Positions 17,493-40,543 of a stretch of 55,970 nucleotides of DNA are shown here, in pieces. The notes beneath the pieces are model-generated. The model was given only the letters and a program-made list of their open reading frames with translations, was not told the origin of the DNA and did no database searches. A program made the position numbers and the translations under genes. The stretch is from a bacterium (lineage in GTDB: Bacteria; UBP15; UBA6099; JAJRTR01), in contig JAJRTR010000073.1 in the NCBI GenBank assembly GCA_024278215.1, forward strand, positions 1 through 55,970, given 5' to 3'. The first letter of the stretch is position 1. Each line of letters begins with the position of its first letter.

Positions 17493-20400
17493 ATGATTTC
17501 ATATTGTCGTTACCTGTACACAACAATAATCATTTTAACATTAGTTATAGTTTTACCTGCACGTTTATATGCCTTTACGGATTCCGGCCAGTCTATAGGA
17601 AGCGGCAATGTATTGTCGGCGGCAGTCGGAGATATCGACGGCGACGGCGACCCCGATTTAATCACCGGATTGAATACACTTGGCGATAAGCTGTTTCTCA
17701 ATAGCGGCGGTACACTTACTGATTCGGGGCAGGCCCTGGACCCTGGAGATACATCCGGGATTTTCATTTTCGACGTAGATGGAGACGGTGATCTGGACTA
17801 TGTTGCAGGGAATCTCAACGGAAACGGCGGACTGTGGCTGAATGACGGGACAGGTACATTTTCTGATTCCGGATTGTCCGTCGGTAACAGTACTTACAGC
17901 TTCTATGCCGTCGATCTCGACATGGACGGCGATTACGACCTGCTCGAAGGAACAGATAATGGAGTCAGCAATAAAGCATGGCTGAATAACGGCGGTGGTG
18001 TCTTTACAGATTCCGGCCGGTCTTTCGACACTTCTACATACGCAGCCGTTGCAGGAAGTGATTTGGACGGCGACGGCGACACGGATTTTGTGGCTGCGGT
18101 TTTGGGAAGTTTACCTAATAAAGTGTGGAAGAATAACGGAACAGGAATCTTCACGGATTCCGGCCAGACACTGGGTGCCTGTGATTCGTCAAGTGTAGCT
18201 ATTTACGATTTTGACGCCGATGGAGACGCGGACGTGTTTTTTGGAAATGTCGGTGCTTCGAACACTGTCTGGCTGAATGACGGTTCCGGCGTACTAACCG
18301 ATTCGGGACAGGCGACGGGTGCGTCCGATACATACTCGGTAGCAGGCGCCGATATGGATGGCGACGGGGATTACGATGTCATATCAGGCAATGCGAATCC
18401 AATAAGCGGCATGCCGAATACATTTTGGATAAACAACGGAAGCGGTGTTTTCACTGACTCCGGCGAGGAGATAGGCGATAACGATTCATTTGCAATCGCT
18501 CTTTCCGACTTCGACGCGGACGGCGACATTGACATTTTCGACGGCAACCTGAGCGCCTCATCCGCCCTTTTCATCAACGACAACAACCATGCGAACACGA
18601 CACCGACAGCGCCGCCGCTGACGGCCGAGCCGGATATTGTAATTCTCGAAGCGACGGCGGCGATAACACTCGAGTGGGGCGCGGGCAGCGATGCAGAGGC
18701 AGCGGACACCGATCTGCTGACCTATGACCTGCGGGTCGGCACTTCAGCCGGAGCGTGCGATGTTTACTGCGGCACTTTTCCGACCGTGGGCGTGAGCCCG
18801 TATCACAGCGTGCTCCCCGGAAACGCGGGGGCGGCTCTATCTCATATTGTAGCGCTTGCGACCGGTACTTATTACTGGTCTGTGCGCACGGTGGACACAA
18901 CATATAAGGCAAGCGCGTGGAGCGTCGACGATTCGTTTATCGTCAGGCCGATTTACACCGATTCGGGCCAGTCGTTCGACGGCGCTAATACTTTCGCCGT
19001 TCACCCGCTGGACGCCGACGGCGACGGTGATGTCGATTTTATCGAAACGATATATCTCGACGACGATGTGCTGTGGAAAAACGACGGGGCCGGCACATTT
19101 ACAAAGGTAACGCAGGTCTGGAACGATATGAATGAGCTGGACGGCTGCACTGCCGACATCGACGGTGACGGCGACATCGATTTTATTTCCGCCAATAACG
19201 CGGCGCAGTCCAACAGGGTATGGAAAAACGACGGGAGCGGCACTTTTACGGACACCGGCCAGGCGCTGGGCAGCGGCAGGACGTATGACTGTGTGACCGT
19301 GGATGTGGATTCCGACGGCGATTACGATCTCGTTGCGGCAAATGAAAACGGAGACCCCAACAAGCTGTATAAAAACAACGGCACCGGGGTTTTCTCCGAT
19401 ACCTTGCAGTCGATGGGTGCGGAATACACGATGGAAGTTGTCGCCGGTGATTTCGACGACGACGGCGACGAGGATGTCGTCTTTGCGAACCGCTATGCGC
19501 CGAGTCAATTGTGGCTCAACGATGGCACAGGTGCGTTGACGGACTCGGGGCAGGCGATCGGCTCCGATGAGGCGCGATCGGTCTTCGCGGCGGATACCGA
19601 CGCGGACGGCGACGCGGACATTCTGATAGGATACGACAACGCGACGGACAGGATATTCATAAATGACGGTTCGGCTACATTCTCCGATTCGGGGCAGTCG
19701 CTCGTGTCACCGAAAACGAGGTCCGTGCATGTCATCGACGTGGATATAGACGGCGACCTGGATATTATAGCGGGCAACTATAATGCAGGCGACAAAGTCT
19801 GGTACAACGACGGTTCGGGCAATTTCAACGATTCGTTCATGAGCCTCGGAACCGGCGAAACGCAGAGTATATTCGCAGTTGATGTGGATGGCGACGGCGA
19901 CACGGACATAATCGAAGGCAACAGCAGCGGCGAGGGGTGCGCGGTATGGGAGAATATTCTCGATCCGTCGAACACGGCACCGTCGGCTCCTTCGATTACG
20001 ACAAAAGCTGATACGATAATTCCCGGAACGGCGACTGTTACATTTGAATGGTCGGACGGAAGCGACCCGGAAACAGCCGACGCCGATCTGCTGACTTATG
20101 ATATTCGTATCGGCACGAGCAGCGGCGGGTGCGAGGCTTTCTGCGGATCGCTGCCGTGGTCGGGCGCGGTGCCGTGGAGAAACACCGGGCCGGGTGCGAT
20201 GGGTGCCACGGGCTCGTTTTCAATCATTATGTCGACGGGAACATATTACTGGTCGATGCGCACGGTGGACCCGGCGAGCCTTGCTGGTGCGTGGGGAACG
20301 GAGGATTCTTTCGTTCTGATACAGGATGACGCAGCCGCTCCGACCGTTATTGACAACCAGGACGGCGATGACACATGGCGGAATGCGGCGGGCACAACTT

Positions 20401-23400
20401 ATGATGTCGATTTCGCCGATACAGGCGATTCGCTGCTCGACAATGTCCAATATACTATATGGTCCGCCGCTTCGATGGCGGGTACGGAACTCGTTTCGTG
20501 GACTGATATCGCCGATAACATTGATTCCATTTCATACACGACCGACTGGGAGATAGACTTCGAATCCGCCACCTCCGGAGTGAATTACGTTTCAGTGCGC
20601 GCTTTCGATAATTTCGGGAATGTTTCAGATGTCGCGACGGACGTTTTTTATGTGAAAAAGGAGACATCGCCGCCCACAGTAACGGACAACCAGGGCGGCG
20701 ACGCCATCTGGCGGAACGCGGCGGGCACAACTTATGATGTCGATTTCGCCGACACGGGCGGTTCGCAACTTGCCGATGTCCAATATACTATATACGATGG
20801 GGCGGGGCAGGGCGGCTCTATGATACTTGGCTGGTCCGGCATCGCGACCGGCGTCGACGCCGATTCTTATACGACAGACTGGCAGATAGATTTCAACGCG
20901 GCCGCCACGGGTACTAATTACGTATCCGTCCGCGCGACCGACAATGCAGGTAATATTTCCGCCGTAGCCACGGACGTGTTTTATGTAAAAAAAGATACGG
21001 CGCTCCCGACAATAGATGATCAAGTGAGCGGCGACGACAACTGGTATGCCGCCGATCCGGGTGCGATTTATAATGTCGATTTCAATGACTCGGGCGGCTC
21101 GATGTTATCCGCCGCTTCTTATACCGTATATACGGGTACAGGCATGTCCGGTTCGCAAGTCATCTCCTGGGCAACTATCGCAGCCGGCATCGGCTCCGAC
21201 TCATATACAGATAACTGGGGTATAGATTTTGCTTCGTTGCCGTTCGGCATCTCCTATATTTCCGTCAGGGCAGCAGATAACGCTCAGAACAGTTCGGGCG
21301 TCGTTCAGGATGTGTTTTACGTGCGGAAGACGCAGATCGCAATGTCGCTCTCATCATATCCCTCCGGAAGCAACAACACGACAGATATAAAAGCGGGCGA
21401 CCTGGACGGCGACGGTGATCTCGATATCATCGAAGGAAACACCGCCCAGACTAATATGGTATGGCTCGGAGACGGAACCGGTGGCTTCACACAGTTGGTT
21501 TCAGTCATGGGGTCTTACTACACGCAATCTGTTTTTATCGCCGACCTCGACAACGACGGCGACCTCGATGTCGTCTGTGGAAACGCATCAGCGGGCGATG
21601 TGAAAAACCGGGTATGGTTCAATGACGGCGTCGCGAATTTTACCGATGCGGGCCTGAACGACAGCCTGGGTTCGAGCGATACTATGTCCGTATTCGCGGC
21701 GGACCTGGACCGTGACGGCGATATGGATTTCATCGCGGGCAATTATGCGCAGGCCGATAAAGTATGGATAAATGACGGTGCAGGCGCGTTCGCTGATTCC
21801 GGGCAATCACTCGGTTCGTATAATACAAATTCAATATTCGGTATTGATGTCGACGGCGACGGCGATATGGATTTTATCGAGGGCAATAATGGAGCGGACA
21901 GAATCCTGCTCAACGACGGTGCCGCCTCGTTTACAGACTCCGGCCAGAGCCTGGGACTTGCTGATACGAAACATATATATTCCACAGACATCGATGCCGA
22001 CGGTGATGCCGACATAATCGCGGCCAATTACGGTGACGATAAAATATGGTTGAATGACGGCGGCGGTATGTTCACGGATTCCGGGCAGTCGCTTTCGTCG
22101 GGTCTGACGGATTCATTCGCGGCGGGCGACCTGGACGGCGACGGCGATTCTGATTTCATCACCGGTCGCGACGGTACGGATTACATCTGGATAAACGACG
22201 GTTCCGGTACGTTCTCCGCGAATGCGCAGACATTTCTATCAATACCTTCTGACGCTGTCGAAGCTCTGGATATGGACGGTGATGGAGACCTGGATATATA
22301 CGTCGGGCGTTATCAATCGAACAATCGTGTTTATATTAACAATAACAACCATGCCAACGCTGCGCCGATCGCGCCTGCGCTTGTTGGCGAACCGACGCAG
22401 GAATTGTCTTCCGACGACGCTGTCGATGTGACACTCGAATGGACCGGCGGAAGCGATGCCGAGACAGGCGACACCGACCTTCTGACTTATGACGTGCGTG
22501 TCGGTACAACAGGCGGCGGCTGCGAAGTTTTCTGCGGCTGGTTTCCGAAAACGGCGGCATGGCTCGGGCATCGGCCCGGCAACGCGGGCGCGACACACGG
22601 TATTTCGTTGTCGCTTCCGCTCGGCAGCTATTACTGGTCGGTGCGCACGGTGGACACAACATTTAAGGCGAGTTCGTGGGCTGCTGAAGATACGTTCACT
22701 CTTTTTCGCCCAGTATTTGTCGATTCCGGCCAGGAACTCGGGAGCGGAGATACGAACGAATTGTGTGTCGCGGATTTCACAGGCAACGGCCACATGGATT
22801 TTGTCGCGGTCGACGATTCCTCAAATGACCTGTTGTGGGTTAATTTCGAGAATGGAACTTTCAGCGACTCCGGCCAGGGCATGAACGCTGCTTATTCCGT
22901 CGACGTATCATGCGCCGACATCGACGGCGATTCCGATATAGACTACATAGTTGCGTTATCGGGAAATTCAAATATTGTTTGGAAGAACAACGGCACAGGA
23001 ACATTTTCTCAGTCCACATCTTTTGATTCGTCCGACACTGAAGGTGTTGTCTTTGCGGATGTCGATAATGACGGCGATGTCGATGTGATAGATGGGAACA
23101 GCGGTACGGGAAACACTGTGTTCCTGAATGACGGAAGCGGTTCTTTTTCGGATTCCGGACAGTCGCTCGGTGTCAGTAACACTACAGATGTTTTTATAGC
23201 CGATCTGGACTCCGATGGCGACAAAGACATTTATGAATCGAATGATGGAGCGGGCAACGTCGTATGGATGAACGATGGAACAGGCGTTTTCTCCGACTCG
23301 GGCCAGTCTCTAGGGACAGATACGACGACGAAGTCTTTTGGAGCGGATGTCGACGGCGATGGTGATATCGACATGATTGAAGGCAATACGCCGGGAGCGC

Positions 23401-25865
23401 CCAACAGAGTAAGGATCAACGACGGTGCGGGTGTTTTCTCCGGCACAGGCGGAGAATACGGCGGCAGCGACACAACAGCTGTTTATCCCGGCGATATCGA
23501 TGTGGACGGCGACTATGATTTCATCGCGGGCAACACGGCGCAGGGAAACGTCGTGTGGTTCAACAGCGCGGGCGTGTTTTCGGATGCCGGTAATTCGCTC
23601 GGCAGCAGCCTGACAAATACTGTTGTACTTGTCGACGTGGACGGCGACGGGGGCCTTGACTATATCGAAGGCAACGGATCCGGCCCCGATAGAATATGGT
23701 TCAATAACCTCGACACGCCGAACACGAATCCTTCGCCGCCCGCTCCGACTGCTCAGCCGGATTACGAAACGGCTTCCATGACGGTTTCCGTAACGCTCGA
23801 GTGGCCGGACGGAACCGACGCCGAAACTGCGGCCGCCGGACTATTGACTTATGAGGTGCGAGTCGGCACGAGCAGCGGAGCCTGCGACATATTATGCGCC
23901 GCGAAAGAGCGTAACCTGACAGCCGGACCCGGCAGCGGGCCGGGAGTGTTCGGACCTATGAACACGCTCGACCTCGATCTCGCATCCGGCACTTATTACT
24001 GGTCGCTGCGTACGGTCGATCCTACATATTACAGGAGCGCGTGGAGCGCCGAGGATTCGTTCTCTATTACTGTCGACAGCACTGCTCCTTCGACGATAAC
24101 GACCGTCAACGACGGCCTCGGCGACGACATCGACTTTTCTACCGATACTGCCTCCTTTTCCGCAAACTGGAGTGAAGCCGCAGACGGTGAGACTTCCATC
24201 GCGCGCTACTGGTACAGCATCGGCACAAGCGCGGGCGCGTCCGATACCGTAGGCTGGACGGATAACGGAACAGCAACATCGGTAACTGTTACGGGACTAA
24301 GTCTCACAGGTGGCCTGACATATTATATATCCGTGAAGGCCGAGAACGGCGCGGGGCTCATAGGCAATCCCGCCGTCTCCGACGGGCTTCTTGTGGACGG
24401 GACATTACCGTCGGCGGTTGCCTTCGTTTACGACGGCGCGGTTGACGGTGCCGACATTGATTTCTCTTCATCCTCATCCCGGCTTTCCGCAAACTGGGCG
24501 ACTTCATCCGATGATGAAACAAGCATCGCCGGTTACTGGTACAGCATCGGCACAAACGCGGGCGCCTCCGATACTGTGCCATGGACCGACAACGCCGCTT
24601 CCACTTCTGTCACCCTTTCTTCTCTTTCTCTCGCAAATGGACAAACTTATTTTTTCTCTGTGAAAGCCGAAAACGGCGCGGGCGCTTTCGGCAGCGTTGA
24701 AACTTCCGACGGGGCGACTGTAGACTGGACTGCGCCCGATGCTGTTCTGGTCGTTTACGACGGCACGGGTGCCGACATCGATTATTCAACCGACACAACA
24801 CAACTATCCGCAAACTGGAGCGCCGCGTCCGATCCCGAATCGGGCATCCTTTCCTACACATACTCGATAGGAACGACGGTGGGCGCGTGCGACGTTGTTT
24901 CCTGGACGGACAACGCTTCAGGCACATCCGTGACCCACACCGGGTTGTCTCTCGCGGACGGACAGGTTTACTTCTTCAGTGTCAGGGCGTTGAACTATGC
25001 CGGACTTTATTCCTCGAAGGTGTTTTCAGACGGTGTGACCATAAATATTTCAGGTCCGGGCGAAGTTGCAGACCTTATGGCCGATCCGGCAATATCCGAG
25101 ATACTTCTGAGTTGGACGAATCCCGCGGACACAGACTTTGCGGGCACAATAATAATGAGAAGTCAGGTTTCTTACCCTTCGAACGCTTCGGAAGGCACTC
25201 GAATATGCGACGAAGCAACAAACGAATTCTGCACCGATGAGACGAGTCTCGCACAGGGACTCACATATTATTATTCAGCTTTTGCTTATGATATTGCAGG
25301 CAATTATTCGACAGCCGCAGGCGAGGGTGCGCGTGCCACGGCTTCTCTTATTACACCCGGCCTGACAATATATTCCGGCTGGAACGCCGCAGGCATTTCG
25401 CTCGATCAGGTTTATATCGACCTCGCCGCGGTTTTCCCATCCGGCGATTATACGATTATCCGCTGCGACGGCCCGGTGACGAATTACGATGGATACATAA
25501 ATGCCACGGGCACCATACAACTCGATTACGCGGGCGGCTACTGGATATTCTCAGGTGAAGATATAGGTGTTGTCGATTACACAGGCGGAAACGCGCAGAC
25601 GGAAAACTACTACCAGATTTCACTTGCCGCCGGTTGGAATATGTTCTCGCTTCCTTATAACAGTGAGATCGAATGGAACGACACGAACGCCGCCCTCGAA
25701 TGCGGCGGCACAGGCACGTCGCTTCCCACTGTTTACTACTACGACAACAGTACAGGAGAATACACGGAAATCGAAGGTGGAGCCGGGAAGTCACTCATGC
25801 CGTGGAGAGGCTACTGGGTCGAAGTGAATGAGTCATGTACATTGACAATTAATAAACCGCAATAG
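17493..25865 (+). CDS. Giant secreted FG-GAP/VCBS protein: four seven-bladed propellers with Fn3-like linkers
   Basis: This is a 2790-residue protein with a signal peptide (residues 1-27, ending ARLYA). Four blocks of calcium-binding repeats (consensus DxDGDGDxD, then WLNDGxGxFxDSGQ) occupy about 28-365, 488-825, 1280-1615 and 1737-2070. Each has exactly seven repeats of ~48 residues, as expected of a seven-bladed propeller. Each block is followed by a ~115-residue Fn3-like module (LTYDLRVGTSAGACD ... GTYYWSVRTVDT). Three Ig-like modules lie at about 946-1280 (NAAGTTYDVDFADTG), and four Fn3 modules at about 2191-2620. The C-terminal ~170 residues (YSGWNAAGISL, LAAGWNMFSLPY) form a beta-rich end domain. 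Such proteins are usually adhesins or surface-matrix proteins. No catalytic domain, LPXTG or PEP-CTERM sorting signal was seen. The ribosome site before 17493 is weak. Confidence 0.9.
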   Translation: MISYCRYLYTTIIILTLVIVLPARLYAFTDSGQSIGSGNVLSAAVGDIDGDGDPDLITGLNTLGDKLFLNSGGTLTDSGQALDPGDTSGIFIFDVDGDGDLDYVAGNLNGNGGLWLNDGTGTFSDSGLSVGNSTYSFYAVDLDMDGDYDLLEGTDNGVSNKAWLNNGGGVFTDSGRSFDTSTYAAVAGSDLDGDGDTDFVAAVLGSLPNKVWKNNGTGIFTDSGQTLGACDSSSVAIYDFDADGDADVFFGNVGASNTVWLNDGSGVLTDSGQATGASDTYSVAGADMDGDGDYDVISGNANPISGMPNTFWINNGSGVFTDSGEEIGDNDSFAIALSDFDADGDIDIFDGNLSASSALFINDNNHANTTPTAPPLTAEPDIVILEATAAITLEWGAGSDAEAADTDLLTYDLRVGTSAGACDVYCGTFPTVGVSPYHSVLPGNAGAALSHIVALATGTYYWSVRTVDTTYKASAWSVDDSFIVRPIYTDSGQSFDGANTFAVHPLDADGDGDVDFIETIYLDDDVLWKNDGAGTFTKVTQVWNDMNELDGCTADIDGDGDIDFISANNAAQSNRVWKNDGSGTFTDTGQALGSGRTYDCVTVDVDSDGDYDLVAANENGDPNKLYKNNGTGVFSDTLQSMGAEYTMEVVAGDFDDDGDEDVVFANRYAPSQLWLNDGTGALTDSGQAIGSDEARSVFAADTDADGDADILIGYDNATDRIFINDGSATFSDSGQSLVSPKTRSVHVIDVDIDGDLDIIAGNYNAGDKVWYNDGSGNFNDSFMSLGTGETQSIFAVDVDGDGDTDIIEGNSSGEGCAVWENILDPSNTAPSAPSITTKADTIIPGTATVTFEWSDGSDPETADADLLTYDIRIGTSSGGCEAFCGSLPWSGAVPWRNTGPGAMGATGSFSIIMSTGTYYWSMRTVDPASLAGAWGTEDSFVLIQDDAAAPTVIDNQDGDDTWRNAAGTTYDVDFADTGDSLLDNVQYTIWSAASMAGTELVSWTDIADNIDSISYTTDWEIDFESATSGVNYVSVRAFDNFGNVSDVATDVFYVKKETSPPTVTDNQGGDAIWRNAAGTTYDVDFADTGGSQLADVQYTIYDGAGQGGSMILGWSGIATGVDADSYTTDWQIDFNAAATGTNYVSVRATDNAGNISAVATDVFYVKKDTALPTIDDQVSGDDNWYAADPGAIYNVDFNDSGGSMLSAASYTVYTGTGMSGSQVISWATIAAGIGSDSYTDNWGIDFASLPFGISYISVRAADNAQNSSGVVQDVFYVRKTQIAMSLSSYPSGSNNTTDIKAGDLDGDGDLDIIEGNTAQTNMVWLGDGTGGFTQLVSVMGSYYTQSVFIADLDNDGDLDVVCGNASAGDVKNRVWFNDGVANFTDAGLNDSLGSSDTMSVFAADLDRDGDMDFIAGNYAQADKVWINDGAGAFADSGQSLGSYNTNSIFGIDVDGDGDMDFIEGNNGADRILLNDGAASFTDSGQSLGLADTKHIYSTDIDADGDADIIAANYGDDKIWLNDGGGMFTDSGQSLSSGLTDSFAAGDLDGDGDSDFITGRDGTDYIWINDGSGTFSANAQTFLSIPSDAVEALDMDGDGDLDIYVGRYQSNNRVYINNNNHANAAPIAPALVGEPTQELSSDDAVDVTLEWTGGSDAETGDTDLLTYDVRVGTTGGGCEVFCGWFPKTAAWLGHRPGNAGATHGISLSLPLGSYYWSVRTVDTTFKASSWAAEDTFTLFRPVFVDSGQELGSGDTNELCVADFTGNGHMDFVAVDDSSNDLLWVNFENGTFSDSGQGMNAAYSVDVSCADIDGDSDIDYIVALSGNSNIVWKNNGTGTFSQSTSFDSSDTEGVVFADVDNDGDVDVIDGNSGTGNTVFLNDGSGSFSDSGQSLGVSNTTDVFIADLDSDGDKDIYESNDGAGNVVWMNDGTGVFSDSGQSLGTDTTTKSFGADVDGDGDIDMIEGNTPGAPNRVRINDGAGVFSGTGGEYGGSDTTAVYPGDIDVDGDYDFIAGNTAQGNVVWFNSAGVFSDAGNSLGSSLTNTVVLVDVDGDGGLDYIEGNGSGPDRIWFNNLDTPNTNPSPPAPTAQPDYETASMTVSVTLEWPDGTDAETAAAGLLTYEVRVGTSSGACDILCAAKERNLTAGPGSGPGVFGPMNTLDLDLASGTYYWSLRTVDPTYYRSAWSAEDSFSITVDSTAPSTITTVNDGLGDDIDFSTDTASFSANWSEAADGETSIARYWYSIGTSAGASDTVGWTDNGTATSVTVTGLSLTGGLTYYISVKAENGAGLIGNPAVSDGLLVDGTLPSAVAFVYDGAVDGADIDFSSSSSRLSANWATSSDDETSIAGYWYSIGTNAGASDTVPWTDNAASTSVTLSSLSLANGQTYFFSVKAENGAGAFGSVETSDGATVDWTAPDAVLVVYDGTGADIDYSTDTTQLSANWSAASDPESGILSYTYSIGTTVGACDVVSWTDNASGTSVTHTGLSLADGQVYFFSVRALNYAGLYSSKVFSDGVTINISGPGEVADLMADPAISEILLSWTNPADTDFAGTIIMRSQVSYPSNASEGTRICDEATNEFCTDETSLAQGLTYYYSAFAYDIAGNYSTAAGEGARATASLITPGLTIYSGWNAAGISLDQVYIDLAAVFPSGDYTIIRCDGPVTNYDGYINATGTIQLDYAGGYWIFSGEDIGVVDYTGGNAQTENYYQISLAAGWNMFSLPYNSEIEWNDTNAALECGGTGTSLPTVYYYDNSTGEYTEIEGGAGKSLMPWRGYWVEVNESCTLTINKPQ

Positions 25866-32278: not shown

Positions 32279-32758
32279 TCACACCGGTTCGAAGTGATCG
32301 ACATCAAGGATCGTGTTGGTTGTTTCATCGGCGAAAACGGCTTTGACTTTCATACCGAGCTCGACCTTGCCGGGCTCGATGCCTTCGAGTATGTGCGGCA
32401 GGGGAGTGTCCGCGCCCCCGAGTTTTATCATAGCGAGAATATATGGCGGCTTGCGCGGCAGGTGTTTGTCTTCGTAGTTGACCACAGTGTAGTTGGTGAG
32501 CTCGCCGGTGTCGGAGAGTTCGACCCAACTGTCGCTGAGGTCTTCCATGCAGCGTTCGCAACGCTGACGAGGCGGCACGAAAACCCTGTTGCATTTTTCG
32601 CATTTTACGCCAAGTATCTGCTTTTTGTCGCGCAGCGCGATCAGGAATCTGCTGCCGACGCGGCCCGCGAAATACTGATATGGAAGCGCCAGTTTGCCGT
32701 CTCTTATATAACAATGTTCGTGCTTGTCGTCTTTTTGTCTTAGTTTCTGTCTTGCCAT
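32279..32758 (-). CDS. DUF35 zinc-ribbon/OB-fold protein
   Basis: This 159-residue protein has an N-terminal helix (residues about 18-40), a rubredoxin-like zinc ribbon (GVKCEKCNRVFVPPRQRCERC, two CxxC pairs; quoted as separate halves CEKC and CERC) and an OB-fold half (GELTNYTVVNYEDKHLP, ILEGIEPGKVELGMKVKAVF). DUF35 proteins bind thiolase-fold enzymes and often guide acyl-CoA, as in BbsA of toluene degradation and ChsH2 of steroid degradation. The start at 32758 has GAGGAGG upstream; ATG 32773 would overlap the previous stop. It sits 11 bp after the SCP2-SCP2-DUF35 gene, so there are two DUF35 proteins for two thiolase-fold proteins. Confidence 0.9.
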   Translation of the reverse strand: MARQKLRQKDDKHEHCYIRDGKLALPYQYFAGRVGSRFLIALRDKKQILGVKCEKCNRVFVPPRQRCERCMEDLSDSWVELSDTGELTNYTVVNYEDKHLPRKPPYILAMIKLGGADTPLPHILEGIEPGKVELGMKVKAVFADETTNTILDVDHFEPV

Positions 32759-32769
32759 TTGCTGCCTCC

Positions 32770-33930
32770 TCATCTCACCTTTTCAAAATAGAGGATATCG
32801 TTGACGGAGCCGGTTCGCTCGTCCGCCCACACGGGCCTCACCCGGTCGCCGGGCTGCGCATCGAAAAGGTCGTTCTTCTTCAGCATGTGCCAGAAAGTTT
32901 CATTGTCTTTGCAACCGTCCAGCAGGACATGCAGGCTGCCGTAAGGTGTTTCACGTGTTTCGCCCGTCAGGGGGTCGGGGCTGGCATAGTATGTGTCGTC
33001 GATCATGGTGATCTCGCCCCCGGGGCCTACCTCGACAAACTCGTCCGCCCGGCACCTGCACGGCGCGCACACCTCGCGCGGCGGCAACTGTTTCCTGCCG
33101 CACTTCGGACACACGTTCGCCAGTATCTTCTTTTCCATCAGGCCTTCGAAAAACTGTCCCATCACAGGTCCGGTCGAGTATTCCATGTCGACTGAAATGA
33201 TCTTTTTCAGCACTATGAGTTCTTCGACCGCTTCCGCTTCTTCGGACGGTACAAATTTCGCGAAGATTTTGGGCAGTTTCATCGCGAGTTCCATATCGCC
33301 CACAAGCTTTAGTCTGCCCGAGCCGAAAGCGACCATCGGATCGAGTTTGCCCAGCATCAGATCGACGTAATCTTCAGCGCTGACGATGTTGCTGACCGTC
33401 AGGTTGTCGCGCAGGCCCTCTTCGAGCGTGCATTTGCCGTCCTTTATGACAGCGGTCCATTGGCCGCCGCCCTTGCCCGTGAAATCGTAGCCGACAGTAA
33501 CGTCGAGTTCCTGCGCGTACTGCGGCTGGAAGCGATCGACGGCTGTTTCGATGATGTCGCGTGCAGTGATGGGTTTTTTCGGCGGCACATATTTGGTGAA
33601 CATCTGCGGCAGCCTGAGCAGCATCGCCATGTCGCCTTCGGCCCTGACGCGGCCCGCCTGGAAAGCTTCCATGCCGTCGATGCGACCGACCGTCATGCCG
33701 ACGAAAGTTTCCGCGTCCGTAATCATTTTCGCAGTGAATTCGGCGGGGAGGCTGTCGAGTTTTTTAGTTTCGGACTTGCCGCCTCCGATGGCGACCATCC
33801 ATCGGCCGCCGCCGGCGCCGCTTATGTCATAGGCGATAACGGCGTCTACGCCTTCCGCGCCCTCGGGCCGGAACCGTTCCGTCTGTGTACTGAAAATATC
33901 ATCAACTGTAGTTCCGAAATATTCTGCCAT
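32770..33930 (-). CDS. SCP2-SCP2-DUF35 fusion protein
   Basis: This 386-residue protein contains two SCP-2 sterol-carrier domains (residues about 5-113 and 122-228) with matching halves (AVIAYDISGAGGGRWMVAIG and VTVGYDFTGKGGGQWTAVI; each followed by AEDYVDLMLGKLDPM-type helices). A DUF35 module follows at about 247-386, with zinc cysteines 274, 277, 288 and 291 (CPKC...CAPC) and an OB-fold end (GDRVRPVWADERTGSVND). SCP-2 domains hold lipids or acyl-CoAs; DUF35 domains partner thiolase-fold enzymes. The fusion therefore looks like a substrate-delivery subunit for one of the two thiolase-fold proteins directly upstream (10 bp). It is cytoplasmic. An MaoC-type hydratase domain is not present. 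Confidence 0.85.
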   Translation of the reverse strand: MAEYFGTTVDDIFSTQTERFRPEGAEGVDAVIAYDISGAGGGRWMVAIGGGKSETKKLDSLPAEFTAKMITDAETFVGMTVGRIDGMEAFQAGRVRAEGDMAMLLRLPQMFTKYVPPKKPITARDIIETAVDRFQPQYAQELDVTVGYDFTGKGGGQWTAVIKDGKCTLEEGLRDNLTVSNIVSAEDYVDLMLGKLDPMVAFGSGRLKLVGDMELAMKLPKIFAKFVPSEEAEAVEELIVLKKIISVDMEYSTGPVMGQFFEGLMEKKILANVCPKCGRKQLPPREVCAPCRCRADEFVEVGPGGEITMIDDTYYASPDPLTGETRETPYGSLHVLLDGCKDNETFWHMLKKNDLFDAQPGDRVRPVWADERTGSVNDILYFEKVR

Positions 33931-33940
33931 AGTATCCTCC

Positions 33941-35137
33941 TCACCAGTCCAGGTCTTTTTCGAGCATCGTGAGCACAGTCCAGAGAGTGCCGCCGAAACC
34001 CGAGGCCAGCGCGTGTTTCACTTCGCTGGGAATCTGATGTCCACCCGCGTCGCCGCGAATCTGTAGCGCGGCCTCGGCGACACGAACCATGGCCGTAGCG
34101 CCTATCGGGTTCGCGGCCACGACACCGCCGGATGGGTTCAACGGCAGCCTGCCGCCGATCTTCAACTCGTCGTTCTCGACCATCTTCAGATGTTCGTCGC
34201 CTTCGAGCAACATGAACTCGCGGAGCCAGTCGAGGCCCCACCAGGACGACGGGTCGTACATCTCGAACACATCGAAGTAATCGACCGGATTGTCGATGCC
34301 GTTGCGCTCGAACAACTTTCGCGCGGCGAAGCGGTGGGTCGTCTCTTCGCGTTCGGCGTCTTCTTTTCCGAAAAGATTGAATGTTTCTTCGCGATGTATC
34401 GTGATATGGTCGCGTATCCAGACGGGTTTGTCGCTCAGTTCCTTTGCCTTTTCTTCGGAGGCAAATATCATGGCGCAGGCACCGTCGCTCTGTGAGCACA
34501 TGTGAATGAGACGCAGTTCGCCGACGAGTTTGGGTGAATTCTCCATCAGGTCGTCGAGCTGGTCGTAGTCGAGACCGAAGCTGCGGTGCGAGTTCGGGTT
34601 GAGCATAGCGTGCTTATCCATGTCGATGCGAAGTTTCATCGCGGCGCGGCGTGCGCGTTCTTCGCCGAATTCGCGGATCATAGCGCCTGCGGTCGCGCCG
34701 GTGAGCGCGCCGGTCTGAAGGTTGCGGGACCATAGCGGATCGGCCATGTTCGTAATGCCGCCGGTCGTGTGGCCTTCCTGTAGTTTTTCGAAACCGACGG
34801 CGAGTACGATGTCGTACATGCCTGAGGCGACAAGGTTGTCCGCGGCGCATACGAGCGTGGCACCTGTCGTGCCGCCTGTCGTAACGCGGTATGCGTCCTT
34901 GCCGTATGCGCCGGTGCCGATTGTGTGCCACAGGTCCGGCTGGTGGACCATCTCGAATAGTTCCATGTTGCCGTGCACGACGCAGTCGATGTCGTCGTAG
35001 GTCAGGCCAGCGTCTTCGAGAGCGAACCGCACGGCTTCGTTTATCATTTCCGGTTGATTGACATCTTCGCGGTGGCTGGAGTACTGCGTCTGCCCGATGC
35101 CGATTATACCAACATTCCTGTTTCTCTTATGGCTCAA
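33941..35137 (-). CDS. Thiolase-fold protein lacking the canonical nucleophile (lipid-transfer/Ltp2-like)
   Basis: This 398-residue protein has the double thiolase fold of the SCP-x/lipid-transfer subgroup: NVGIIGIGQTQYS at the start, VASGMYDIVLAVGFEKL, and the C-terminal LNPSGGVVAANPIGATAMVR...EAALQIRGDAGGHQI. The usual acyl-binding Cys position reads TTGGTTGATLV, with no Cys. The usual GHP histidine is Asn (AANP), and the second Cys-x-Gly near the end reads SGFGGT. Loss of the nucleophile is known in Ltp2-type retro-aldolases that work with DUF35 partners, so a C-C lyase role is as likely as thiolysis. It lies between a second thiolase-fold gene (13 bp upstream) and the SCP2-DUF35 gene. Confidence 0.85.
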   Translation of the reverse strand: MSHKRNRNVGIIGIGQTQYSSHREDVNQPEMINEAVRFALEDAGLTYDDIDCVVHGNMELFEMVHQPDLWHTIGTGAYGKDAYRVTTGGTTGATLVCAADNLVASGMYDIVLAVGFEKLQEGHTTGGITNMADPLWSRNLQTGALTGATAGAMIREFGEERARRAAMKLRIDMDKHAMLNPNSHRSFGLDYDQLDDLMENSPKLVGELRLIHMCSQSDGACAMIFASEEKAKELSDKPVWIRDHITIHREETFNLFGKEDAEREETTHRFAARKLFERNGIDNPVDYFDVFEMYDPSSWWGLDWLREFMLLEGDEHLKMVENDELKIGGRLPLNPSGGVVAANPIGATAMVRVAEAALQIRGDAGGHQIPSEVKHALASGFGGTLWTVLTMLEKDLDW

Positions 35138-35150
35138 TGTGTGACCTCCT

Positions 35151-36299
35151 TTACTCGGAATCGAGAACGAGCACGGAATGGAATTGGCCGGCCGCGCCGG
35201 TCGTCCCGTGAGCGAGGGCTTTCTTAGCGCCTTCGACCTGCCGGTCGCCGGCTTCGCCGCGGAGTTGTATTACGGCTTCAGCGGCGCGGGCGAGACCGCC
35301 TATCATCAGTGGGTTGCCCGCAAGCATGCCGCCCGATTTGTTCACGTTGCATGTTTTGAGTCCGCCGCCGTCGATCAGGGCGCTGCCTTTGCCTTCGCCG
35401 CACAGTCCGAGTCCTTCGAGCCACATCGGCGTCTGGTAAGCGAAGCAGTCGTTGACTTCCACGAGGTCGAACTCCTCGGCGGGGTTCTTCACGCCTGCTT
35501 TCCTGTAAGCGCGTTCGGCGGCTTTTTTCAGCGAGAAGTTACCGACGAGGTCTTTGTCGCCGAGGAAATAGCTGTCCATGCAGTTGGCGAAACCGCTGAT
35601 CCAGACCGGTTTATCTGTGAATTCCGAGGCGCGCTCTTCGCACACGAGCAGCATGGCGACAGCGCCGTCTGAGACCGGGTATTCATGAAGAAGGCGGATG
35701 GGATCGCACGTCATCGGCGATTTAAGCACCTGCTCTTCGGTCAGCAATTCCCTGGCGTTCGCCGCCGGGTTGAGGGCGGCGTTTTTCCTTGAGTTGACGA
35801 CCACCTTCGCGAGGTGCTCGTCGGTGACACCGGATTTGTTCATATAGGCGCGAGCCTGGAGCGCGGCGACATTCTTAAAGTCCAGTCCCAGCGGCCTGTA
35901 GTAGAACGGATCGAAAGCCAGGTTTGTGACCATATCGCGGCTTTCGGACTGCGATTCCTTGCAGTGGCCGACTATCAGAATGATATCGTCGTGACCCGAC
36001 AACACGCAGGCGAGCCCGTAGCCGATGGCGTTTATTCCATCCATCGTTACCTTCTCTTCGCCCCTGTAATGAGCGCCGACAGCATCGGTCATAGCGTTGT
36101 CGGAGATAGTGCGGGCGTCGAAAACATCGTCCGAGCATGTGATAATATTCCTTATACCGGTGGCCATGTCGAAAGTGACGCCGGTTTTCCGGATTATCGG
36201 TTCCACGATGTCGAACGCCATCTCCTGGAAGCGCTTTTGCCACAGATTGGTGAAGAAACCAGTCTGTTCGACAGCGCAGACAGCAACACGTTTTCCCAT
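35151..36299 (-). CDS. Second thiolase-fold protein of the SCP-x/lipid-transfer type
   Basis: This 382-residue protein is the first gene of the operon. It has MGKRVAVCAVEQTGFF at the start, HDDIILIVGHCKES, the conserved DLVEVNDCFAYQTPM, then GGGLKTCNVNKSGGMLAGNP and EAVIQLRGEAGDRQV. The nucleophile position reads DGINAIGYGLACVLSG; Cys is absent from the expected place, although ACV follows a few residues later. The histidine of GHP is Asn (GNP), and the C-terminal Cys is replaced (HGTTGAAGQF). It shares its fold with the neighbour at 33941 but is diverged, so the two could form a heteromer or act on different substrates. The start is preceded by GGAGG. A TATAAT-type promoter lies just upstream. 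Confidence 0.85.
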   Translation of the reverse strand: MGKRVAVCAVEQTGFFTNLWQKRFQEMAFDIVEPIIRKTGVTFDMATGIRNIITCSDDVFDARTISDNAMTDAVGAHYRGEEKVTMDGINAIGYGLACVLSGHDDIILIVGHCKESQSESRDMVTNLAFDPFYYRPLGLDFKNVAALQARAYMNKSGVTDEHLAKVVVNSRKNAALNPAANARELLTEEQVLKSPMTCDPIRLLHEYPVSDGAVAMLLVCEERASEFTDKPVWISGFANCMDSYFLGDKDLVGNFSLKKAAERAYRKAGVKNPAEEFDLVEVNDCFAYQTPMWLEGLGLCGEGKGSALIDGGGLKTCNVNKSGGMLAGNPLMIGGLARAAEAVIQLRGEAGDRQVEGAKKALAHGTTGAAGQFHSVLVLDSE

Positions 36300-37442: not shown

Positions 37443-37492
37443 AAAGTGACTGATTTCATGCGGTTACAATTTCCGAAAGGAATAATATTCTG

Positions 37493-40400
37493 ATGACGGA
37501 TGAGCAGAGAAATTTCGCGGAATACAATCGCCCGGAGCTGGCGAAGCTGCTGACGGCCTTGAGGCTGGATGTGGAATATGTGCGGGGGCGTGGCGATTAT
37601 CTTTATTACAAGAACGAAAAAGGTGAAGAAGTCGAAGTGCTGGACCTCGCGGGCGGCATGGGGTCGACCGTGCTCGGACACAACAATCCCGAGATAAAAG
37701 AAGTCATGCAATCATGTATCGACAACGATGTGCCTATGCACGCGCAGGGTTCGTTTCGCGAGTCGGCCGGCAGGCTGGGCAGGAAGCTGTCCGAGCTGTA
37801 TCCCGGCAAGGAAAAGCGGGTCACGATTCTATGCAATTCCGGCACCGAAGCGGTCGAGTGCGCGCTCAAACACGCAGAGTTCAACCGCATGTTGCGGTTC
37901 CGGGAGATCGGCAGGGACATCTACCGTAATTATAAGGAGATGAAAGAATATTTCAGGATGCACTCGAACCTGAAACTGCCGAAAAAATATGCTGAAAAGG
38001 GCGCTGAGGCGCTGCTCAACGATATCCTTCTCCAGACACAGGTGCTCGAACAACTGCCGCCGGTAGTGATCTCGACAGAGAAATCGTTCCACGGGAAAAC
38101 CACCGGGGCGCTGCGTGTTACAGGCAGCACGATGTACCGCGAAGCGTTCCAGCGACTCAGCGGCATCGACGCGAGATTCATCGAATTCAACAACCTCGAC
38201 GATCTGAAAAAAGTACTCGAAAAGAGCTATTTCACTATAAAGAAGATCACAGTGGACGACGGCGTTGTGAAACTTGTCGGCCGCCGGTACCTGAACGTGA
38301 CGGCGTTTATAATGGAGCTGATACAGGGCGAGGGCGGCATAAATGTCGCTACGCGCGATTTCGTGCGCGGCATTGTTAAACTGCGCAAGCAACACGGCTT
38401 CGAATGGATCGTCGACGAGATACAGACGGGCCTTGGCCGCACGGGAAAACTTTTCTGCATCGAGAATTATGCCGTAGACAAAGACGCGGTCGATTACATG
38501 GTGTTGTCGAAGGCGCTGGGCGGCGCCACGCACAAAGTAGGCGCTATGCTCGTGCGTGAGTCGATACACAACAGCCGGTTCGGCATCCTGCACACTTCAA
38601 CATTCGCCGAGGACTCACCCGGTTGCATGGTTGCCCTCAAGGCACTCGAGATCACTACGGCCAACAAAGGCGAGGCATTCAGGATGGCCGCCGAAAAAGG
38701 CAACTACATGAAGGCGAAGCTCAAGGAGATAAAAAAGGAATACCCGGACATTATCAGGGAAGTGCGCGGCATGGGACTGATGATCGGGGTCGATTTCCAT
38801 ATCTTCAAAGAAAGCAATTCGCTGTTCTTCAACCGGTGCAGCAAGCAGGGCGTTTTCGCATCGGTTCTCGCGGGCTACCTTCTGCACGAGCACAGAATCC
38901 GCACAGCGCCGCCGCTCAATTCGCTTGTCGCGGCCCGACCGATGAATGTATTGCGCATCGAGCCGTCGGTTTATATTTCCCGCAAGGATATGGACCGTGT
39001 GATATTCGCTATACGGCGCGCCTGCAAGATCGTCCGCAGGGCCAACGCCTACGAATTCAGCAAGTTTGTAATCGGCAAAGAGACGCCCGGCAAGTACGGC
39101 AGGATAGAAGACTACTCCGGTCCGGCATACAAGCCGCCCGTCGATCCGGAATTCGAGAAATGCCGCCGGATGGCTTTCCTTATCCACCCGCTGGACATCC
39201 ACCAGGTGATGGAGGACTTTGACAGGTCTCTGAGCGGATTCTCCAGGGAGAAGGACCCGGAGACGGGACTGAGCGAACGCGAACGTTACTGGGACATCAT
39301 CGTACCGCTGCTCGATTCGTTTGTGTTCAGAGTCGTACATGTGAAATCGCCGCGAACGGGCGACAGGGTCAAAGCCCATTTCATCGGGTTCCTCTACACG
39401 ACGCAACAGATGGTGAAACTTCGCAAAACCAACCCGGAAGTCCTGATCGAGGGCATACAGAAGGCCGTCGACCTGGGCGCGAGCCTGGGCGCGGAAGTAT
39501 GCGGGCTCGGCGCTTTCACTTCGATCGTAACACACAACGGCACGGATATGGACGATACATACATCAATATCACGAGCGGCAATTCGTACACGGCCGCGCT
39601 GGTGTGGCAGAGTGTGCTCAAGGCGGCGGATTATGCCGGTCTGAAACTCGACGAGTGTACGGGCGCAGTGGTCGGAGCGGGCGGCAACATAGGCAGTGTT
39701 TGCGCAAGCCTGCTGTCCGAGGACATACCACGTCTGTTGCTGATAGGCAGCAGAAAATCGCAGACGGTCGACAGGCTTCGCGAAGTCGCTTATTCCATCT
39801 ATTCTGACAGTGTCGACATAATCCGCACAGCCCGCCCGCAGGACCTCAAGGGCCTCCCGGCCGCGCTCGCCCGGGACCTCGTGCTGCCGTTCGCCGCTCT
39901 TAACTCCCGGGAATACCGCTTCAAAGAAAAAGCGATTAACAATTTTATCGAAAAAAATTATTCGGGCAAAGACCAGAAAATCGGACACCTTGTGAAATCT
40001 ATTTTCTACTCGCGTCCCGATTCCGACATTGGCCGCAAGGTCTACCAGGCTATTCAGCTCAAGCACGGGACCGATCCTTATATCACACTGACAACCAACC
40101 TGAAAAGATATATTCCGCAGGCCGACGTGATCATTTCCGCCGTAAGTGCCGACAGGTCCATCATGGATGTGAAGTGGTTCAAGCCCGGCGCGGTTGTGAA
40201 CGACGCGAGCCTGCCGCCAAGCATATCGACTCAGCTCTACAAAGAACGCCCCGACGTGATCGCCACGCAGGGCGGGGTCGGCCACCTGCCCGAGTACATC
40301 AACCTCGGCATACCAGGACTCGCCGCAGGCGCCACTCTCGGATGTATGGCCGAAACATTCATCCTGACAATGATGCACATGGCCGACAACTACAGCTTCG

Positions 40401-40543
40401 GCAGAATCACAAAACAGCAGGTTGTGAAAATATGGGAGGCCGGCAAAATCCTCGGATTCGGCATCGCAGCAATCAAATATATGGGTAACAAAAAACTCAC
40501 ACGAGACATAGCCGCGGAAATTATGCGCAAATCAGAAAAGTGA
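37493..40543 (+). CDS. Class III aminotransferase fused to acyl-ACP/acyl-CoA reductase-like domain
   Basis: This is a 1016-residue two-domain enzyme. Residues ~1-510 are a fold-type I class III aminotransferase: LDLAGGMGSTVLGHNNPEI, CNSGTEAVECALKHAE, KSFHGKTTGALR, IVDEIQTGLGRTGKLF and Lys340 (LSKALGGATH) for PLP. A ~55-residue helical insert (about 127-185) separates SGTEAVE from FHGKT. Residues ~570-1016 match cyanobacterial long-chain acyl-ACP reductase (AAR): GFLYTTQQMVKLRKTNPEVL, LGAEVCGLGAFTSIVTHNG, NITSGNSYTAAL, NAD(P) loop VVGAGGNIGS, and Cys951 in LGCMAETFIL, aligning with the nucleophile of AAR (ACFAES). AAR makes fatty aldehydes, so the fusion could turn an acyl thioester into an aldehyde and then an amine, or work in reverse. 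It is followed 84 bp later by a GT-C-like gene. Both active sites look intact. Confidence 0.85.
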   Translation: MTDEQRNFAEYNRPELAKLLTALRLDVEYVRGRGDYLYYKNEKGEEVEVLDLAGGMGSTVLGHNNPEIKEVMQSCIDNDVPMHAQGSFRESAGRLGRKLSELYPGKEKRVTILCNSGTEAVECALKHAEFNRMLRFREIGRDIYRNYKEMKEYFRMHSNLKLPKKYAEKGAEALLNDILLQTQVLEQLPPVVISTEKSFHGKTTGALRVTGSTMYREAFQRLSGIDARFIEFNNLDDLKKVLEKSYFTIKKITVDDGVVKLVGRRYLNVTAFIMELIQGEGGINVATRDFVRGIVKLRKQHGFEWIVDEIQTGLGRTGKLFCIENYAVDKDAVDYMVLSKALGGATHKVGAMLVRESIHNSRFGILHTSTFAEDSPGCMVALKALEITTANKGEAFRMAAEKGNYMKAKLKEIKKEYPDIIREVRGMGLMIGVDFHIFKESNSLFFNRCSKQGVFASVLAGYLLHEHRIRTAPPLNSLVAARPMNVLRIEPSVYISRKDMDRVIFAIRRACKIVRRANAYEFSKFVIGKETPGKYGRIEDYSGPAYKPPVDPEFEKCRRMAFLIHPLDIHQVMEDFDRSLSGFSREKDPETGLSERERYWDIIVPLLDSFVFRVVHVKSPRTGDRVKAHFIGFLYTTQQMVKLRKTNPEVLIEGIQKAVDLGASLGAEVCGLGAFTSIVTHNGTDMDDTYINITSGNSYTAALVWQSVLKAADYAGLKLDECTGAVVGAGGNIGSVCASLLSEDIPRLLLIGSRKSQTVDRLREVAYSIYSDSVDIIRTARPQDLKGLPAALARDLVLPFAALNSREYRFKEKAINNFIEKNYSGKDQKIGHLVKSIFYSRPDSDIGRKVYQAIQLKHGTDPYITLTTNLKRYIPQADVIISAVSADRSIMDVKWFKPGAVVNDASLPPSISTQLYKERPDVIATQGGVGHLPEYINLGIPGLAAGATLGCMAETFILTMMHMADNYSFGRITKQQVVKIWEAGKILGFGIAAIKYMGNKKLTRDIAAEIMRKSEK

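Follow-up and report, generated by a model that had tools for sequence, protein, structure and literature searches.

Proteins that join an aminotransferase to an acyl thioester reductase in one chain are already known, as both TamH and PigE have been published. PtTamH, from tambjamine YP1 synthesis in Pseudoalteromonas tunicata, was described in 2022, and converts C12-ACP to the C12 amine with NADH and L-Glu (PMC9594044). It is NADH-specific and does not accept acyl-CoA, and the aldehyde is seen when Glu is left out (PMC9594044). PigE, from the MAP branch of prodigiosin synthesis in Serratia, reduces a thioester, and transamination follows (PMC8341465). Relatives of TamH were named only in Pseudoalteromonas, Chitinimonas, Paucibacter and Streptomyces (PMC9594044). 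I describe here a gene of this type in a stretch of 55,970 nucleotides (hereafter the window) from an uncultured bacterial lineage. An earlier note on this DNA had described the fusion from the sequence alone. Its architecture is not novel, given the two published systems; what is new is its wide distribution, its duplicated copy in the uncultured lineage, and an operon that includes a radical enzyme.

The reading frame is uninterrupted from an ATG at 37493 to a stop at 40541-40543, and encodes 1016 amino acids (Table 1). The genome itself and its order-mates contain full-length homologues with 58-64% identity, and the frame is therefore far beyond chance. No variation is seen at Lys340, Gly728, Gly731, Cys951 or Glu954 across the 49 aligned single-chain homologues. 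The note had named the lysine, the NAD(P) loop, the cysteine and the coordinates correctly, and its reading as a class III aminotransferase and an AAR-type reductase in a single chain is borne out by Pfam (PF00202), phmmer and the structural models described below.

Table 1. Features of the fusion gene, in window coordinates.
Feature	Position	Strand	Evidence
CDS, TamH-type aminotransferase-acyl thioester reductase, one chain, 1016 aa	37493..40543	+	ORF and full-length conservation in order-mates
AAAGGAA, resembling a ribosome site, ~10 nt 5' of the ATG	37476..37482	+	Direct reading of the sequence
Class III PLP aminotransferase domain, residues ~1-510	37493..39022	+	PF00202, CrmG 5dds, Foldseek 8jt3
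Helical insert of the aminotransferase, ~63 residues (128-190), marks the long subtype	37874..38062	+	CrmG alignment, model
Lys340 codon (LSKALGG), PLP Schiff-base lysine	38510..38512	+	Invariant in 49 homologues; K340 of PtTamH (PMC9594044)
Interdomain linker, residues 516-556	39038..39160	+	Model and alignment
Acyl-ACP reductase (AAR)-type domain, residues 557-1016	39161..40540	+	phmmer PigE/AAR; AlphaFold model
NAD(P)-binding loop VVGAGGNIGS, residues 726-735	39668..39697	+	Gly728, Ala729, Gly731 and Ile733 invariant in 49
Wholly helical insertion of the reductase, in its Rossmann part (758-858)	39764..40066	+	Longest in the window's order
Cys951 codon (LGCMAETF), predicted acyl-accepting nucleophile	40343..40345	+	Aligns with AAR Cys294; invariant in 49

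The N-terminal half matches the Pfam family Aminotran_3 (PF00202, E 3.8e-63) over residues 27-475. Its closest solved relative, CrmG (5dds, E 1.7e-69), spans residues 18-508, and the aminotransferase part is matched by Foldseek to 8jt3 (E 3.4e-40). An AlphaFold2 model of the whole chain, built with 49 homologues, has a mean pLDDT of 91.3 and a pTM of 0.86, and CrmG is its top match in the PDB, followed by PigE and putrescine aminotransferase. The model places helices at residues 117-156 and 171-187, within or around the aminotransferase insert.

For the C-terminal half, no Pfam family scored above its cut-off. Sequence comparison with phmmer identified PigE (4ppm, E 2.3e-17) and the Synechococcus AAR (6jzq, E 1.4e-9). 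GCMAETFIL aligns over ACFAEAMLL, which places Cys951 on the catalytic Cys294 of the Synechococcus enzyme, and the match continues past the cysteine with NYSFGR over NFSWGR, just as the note had read it. Since aminotransferases swamped the fold search with the whole chain, the C-terminal half was folded alone, giving an AlphaFold model with a pLDDT of 93.9. Its best PDB match is 6jzy, an AAR structure containing NADPH and stearyl (E 8.8e-18; TM 0.78 when scaled to the target length), with the related carmabin TAD domain second and level with it (E 3.0e-17). AAR crystal structures are thus the best match for this half, and no other Rossmann family does better: such enzymes reach ~1e-5, eleven orders of magnitude behind AAR. 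A better alignment to another Rossmann family was what the note had said would refute its reading, and the AAR assignment withstands this comparison. Hints from Pfam had pointed to shikimate DH and FolD; an identity as such another Rossmann enzyme is ruled out by sequence and fold together.

Domain identity, the conserved catalytic residues, the fold and the conservation of the fusion are direct observations. Given the precedents of PtTamH and PigE, conversion of an acyl thioester to an aldehyde and then to an amine is the best-supported reading, and I put at about three in four the probability that the window protein is a TamH-type bifunctional enzyme, taking a carrier-bound acyl group to a fatty aldehyde and on to a primary fatty amine. 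Cys951 of the C-terminal domain would take over the acyl group from an acyl carrier protein (or from CoA), and reduction with NAD(P)H would yield the fatty aldehyde. The N-terminal domain, its PLP bound to Lys340, would then transaminate the aldehyde to the primary fatty amine, with glutamate as the probable donor. The earlier note had proposed this same reaction, and it is identical to that demonstrated for PtTamH (PMC9594044), the homologue from which it is extended to the window protein by likeness. I further infer an acyl-ACP substrate, a long chain, a biosynthetic direction, and a role for the amine as a building block of lipids or secondary metabolites. The second Rossmann strand is followed by basic residues (IGSRK, IGRER, LGSKK), which suggests NADPH as the cofactor.

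Contigs were scanned with a profile of the C-half alignment and the best 80 named loci were kept; an earlier scan with a single protein as the query had returned no matches. Both domains lie in one frame, with the aminotransferase first, in 74 of these best 80 loci, and the remaining six are truncated or not resolved by a simple ORF caller. Outside the window's order, identity to fused relatives is only ~25-34%, a point against the TamH-type reading. The fusion is seen in seven named phyla in addition to the window's lineage, namely Bacillota (many, including Bacillus, Brevibacillus and Anoxybacillus), Thermodesulfobacteriota, Planctomycetota, Gemmatimonadota, Myxococcota, Pseudomonadota and Goldiibacteriota. 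Given this spread, fatty amines may be formed in nature far more often than has been assumed, and the family offers biotechnology a wide set of one-chain catalysts from fatty acid to amine. Fusions occur in Anoxybacillus, Brevibacillus and Bacillus genomes (L090, L102, L111), so that isolates exist for testing; Brevibacillus gelatini DSM 100115 is one cultured carrier. A fusion frame from Polyangiaceae (L113:3600-8132) is 1510 amino acids long, with ~490 extra N-terminal residues that have no Pfam match and possibly reflect only an over-long start.

Two subtypes are apparent. Long-type fusions carry a helical insert of 61-74 residues in the aminotransferase, and short-type fusions have 8 residues at the same place. 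In a tree built without PtTamH, the window protein falls on the long side, and its order forms one clade (support 100) split into paralogue A (window, G001, G002) and paralogue B (G000:C151, G002). The note had suggested that the insert binds the acyl carrier, but the stand-alone CrmG aligns through it, and short-type fusions keep the AAR domain without it, which argues against such a role. The reductase has a helical insertion of its own, where positions 756 to 870 comprise 115 residues in the window protein as against 70-105 in relatives; the corresponding gap in the Synechococcus AAR is ~11 residues in the phmmer alignment. In Syntrophomonadaceae and other Clostridia, the short-type fusions are surrounded by a conserved set of housekeeping genes, with M16 peptidases, prolyl-tRNA synthetase and 5-FTHF cyclo-ligase (L058, L065, L067, L069, L076, L083, L084, L088, L089, L108 and similar loci), which suggests a core role rather than a secondary-metabolite role for them.

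The window gene is preceded by a divergent PHP-domain gene and a gene cluster, and followed 85 bp downstream by a GT-C gene; these local neighbours are not conserved in relatives. The note had proposed the GT-C gene as a partner, and asked whether the two halves are fused elsewhere beside the same gene. The fusion does recur, as described above, but the GT-C gene is absent beside it in G001 and G002, and the GT-C homologues of the order are on other contigs, so the partnership is not upheld. Copy A is flanked by genes resembling Lnt (apolipoprotein N-acyltransferase) in G001 and G002 (L036:11941-13425, L037:6225-7814). They look like a shared partner, but the two share only 25% identity and have different orientations, so that their placement may be due to chance, and G000 has a single LNT_N match, on another contig than the fusion. 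Elsewhere in the window, a 2790-aa protein on the forward strand (17493-25865), carrying fn3 domains and about 27 FG-GAP repeats, is probably a large surface or secreted protein.

In several long-type relatives the fusion has other neighbours. An AMP-binding acyl ligase adjoins it in L118, L122, L099 and L120, an ACP gene is nearby in L049, and MMPL-type exporters are found close to it, by Pfam on L118 and L047 and as similar proteins in L122, L049, L096, L099 and L120. Ligase, ACP and exporter are what synthesis and export of a fatty amine would need. Beside the gene in the window's own lineage, I found no acyl ligase, ACP, desaturase or exporter, and saw no tambjamine-type genes. Genome-wide searches returned only generic ANL matches for a TamA-like ligase. 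For the PP-binding family they returned two ACP genes, both small, at G000:C34 and G000:C85 (G000 being the window's genome), and the presence of these favours the fatty-amine reading. With the local genes unconserved, no such neighbours, and only generic TamA-like ligase matches, the substrate and product are not fixed by context.

Two other readings keep both active sites and change what passes through them. The same chemistry could run towards breakdown, from a primary amine through the aldehyde to an acyl thioester destined for beta-oxidation. In its favour, positions 32279-36299 on the reverse strand of the window hold a cluster of lipid or steroid-type degradation. Two of its products resemble thiolases, one combines two SCP2 domains with a ChsH2-type zinc ribbon, and another is again like a zinc-ribbon protein. 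Paralogue B also adjoins a glycyl radical enzyme, and pathways with such enzymes can be catabolic, as reported for taurine breakdown (PMC6386719). However, the cluster is divergent from the fusion and its link to it is not found in relatives, both PtTamH and PigE run biosynthetically, and long-type relatives adjoin acyl-activating ligases and exporters, as synthesis predicts. I consider breakdown improbable.

The product might instead be a shorter or functionalised amine, for example from an offloaded polyketide or peptide thioester. PigE, with its 3-acetyloctanoyl thioester, is a precedent for this, as is CrmG for the aminotransferase alone; CrmG is also the closest aminotransferase structure, and in fold the C-terminal half matches the carmabin TAD domain as well as it does AAR. 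One homologue (G034, L041:8767-14001) adjoins a short-chain dehydrogenase and a class I/II PLP enzyme that resembles alpha-oxoamine synthases, a neighbourhood reminiscent of sphingoid or natural-product chemistry. Against this, no PKS or NRPS gene was seen beside the window gene, and the only PP-binding proteins found genome-wide were the two small ACPs. A shorter or functionalised product is unlikely, and synthesis of a fatty amine from a carrier-bound acyl group remains the preferred reading.

The second fusion copy in the window's genome, paralogue B, is 58% identical to the window protein, and its operon is the most unusual lead of this analysis. It is present in two different families of the order (L035:5276-12304 in G000:C151 and L038:7192-14170 in G002), as a run of a ~990-aa glycyl radical enzyme, a radical-SAM activase and then, as the third gene, fusion copy B. 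The radical enzyme carries GCVEP and glycyl-radical motifs, and scores below every NCBIfam equivalog cut-off. Its N-terminus is a ~190-residue domain with weak similarity to SCP2 lipid carriers (E 0.0079 in the G003 orthologue, below the Pfam cut-off). It occurs in all seven genomes of the order, G003 included, where the fusion was not found. Four other lineages (L142-L145) likewise have the SCP2-like domain fused to a radical enzyme, whereas in two more (L146, L147) it is a separate 162-aa gene beside a radical enzyme and activase.

A literature search revealed no paper linking an SCP2-like domain with a radical enzyme, and the SCP2-domain radical enzyme may be an undescribed class that acts on lipids. 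The link between the radical enzyme and amine formation is made by two operons only; a search for such a link outside the order gave only L045, itself an order-mate, and L082, where a distant radical enzyme of the ordinary PFL kind lies ~1.4 kb from the fusion. It is conceivable, if a long shot, that the fusions of this order supply a lipid pathway with long-chain amines for membrane or storage lipids, and that paralogue B works together with this putative enzyme class. A lipid amine, or the precursor of one, would then be the target of radical chemistry, carried out by an operon that joins a radical enzyme, its activase and an amine-forming fusion.

The described system closest to the window protein is PtTamH. 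According to its published description, it likewise has the aminotransferase followed by the AAR-type reductase in one chain, PLP on Lys340, a GxxGxxG loop, and a single conserved cysteine homologous to Cys294 of AAR; CrmG and AAR are the closest structures for both proteins. They differ in length (1016 amino acids as against 941), and in the cofactor motif, which looks NADPH-like in the window protein whereas PtTamH uses NADH. TamA, an ANL-ACP acyl-activating enzyme, is encoded in the PtTamH cluster, a trait of context more than of definition, while no TamA-like ANL-ACP gene adjoins the window gene, whose lineage, unlike that of PtTamH, is uncultured and has two paralogues. PigE (4ppm) also combines a class III aminotransferase with an AAR-type thioester reductase in one chain, and both halves match the window protein by sequence. 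The reductase domain is first in PigE, the reverse of the order seen here, and the score against the NCBIfam PigE model (NF053554) is 344.5 bits, below the cut-off of 850.

Among proteins that resemble one half, CrmG, the caerulomycin aminotransferase, shares the helical insert but stands alone, without a reductase domain. The carmabin TAD domain (9e56, 9e4s), the second-ranked fold for the C-terminal half, is a cysteine enzyme caught with dephospho-CoA and NAD, and belongs to a cyanobacterial natural-product pathway. The cyanobacterial long-chain AAR (6jzy/6jzq) has the closest fold, with the same catalytic cysteine and NAD(P) loop. It is a stand-alone protein of ~340 amino acids, without the ~100-residue helical insertion present in the fused window protein, and its partner is the aldehyde deformylating oxygenase, whereas the reductase of the window protein is partnered with an aminotransferase.
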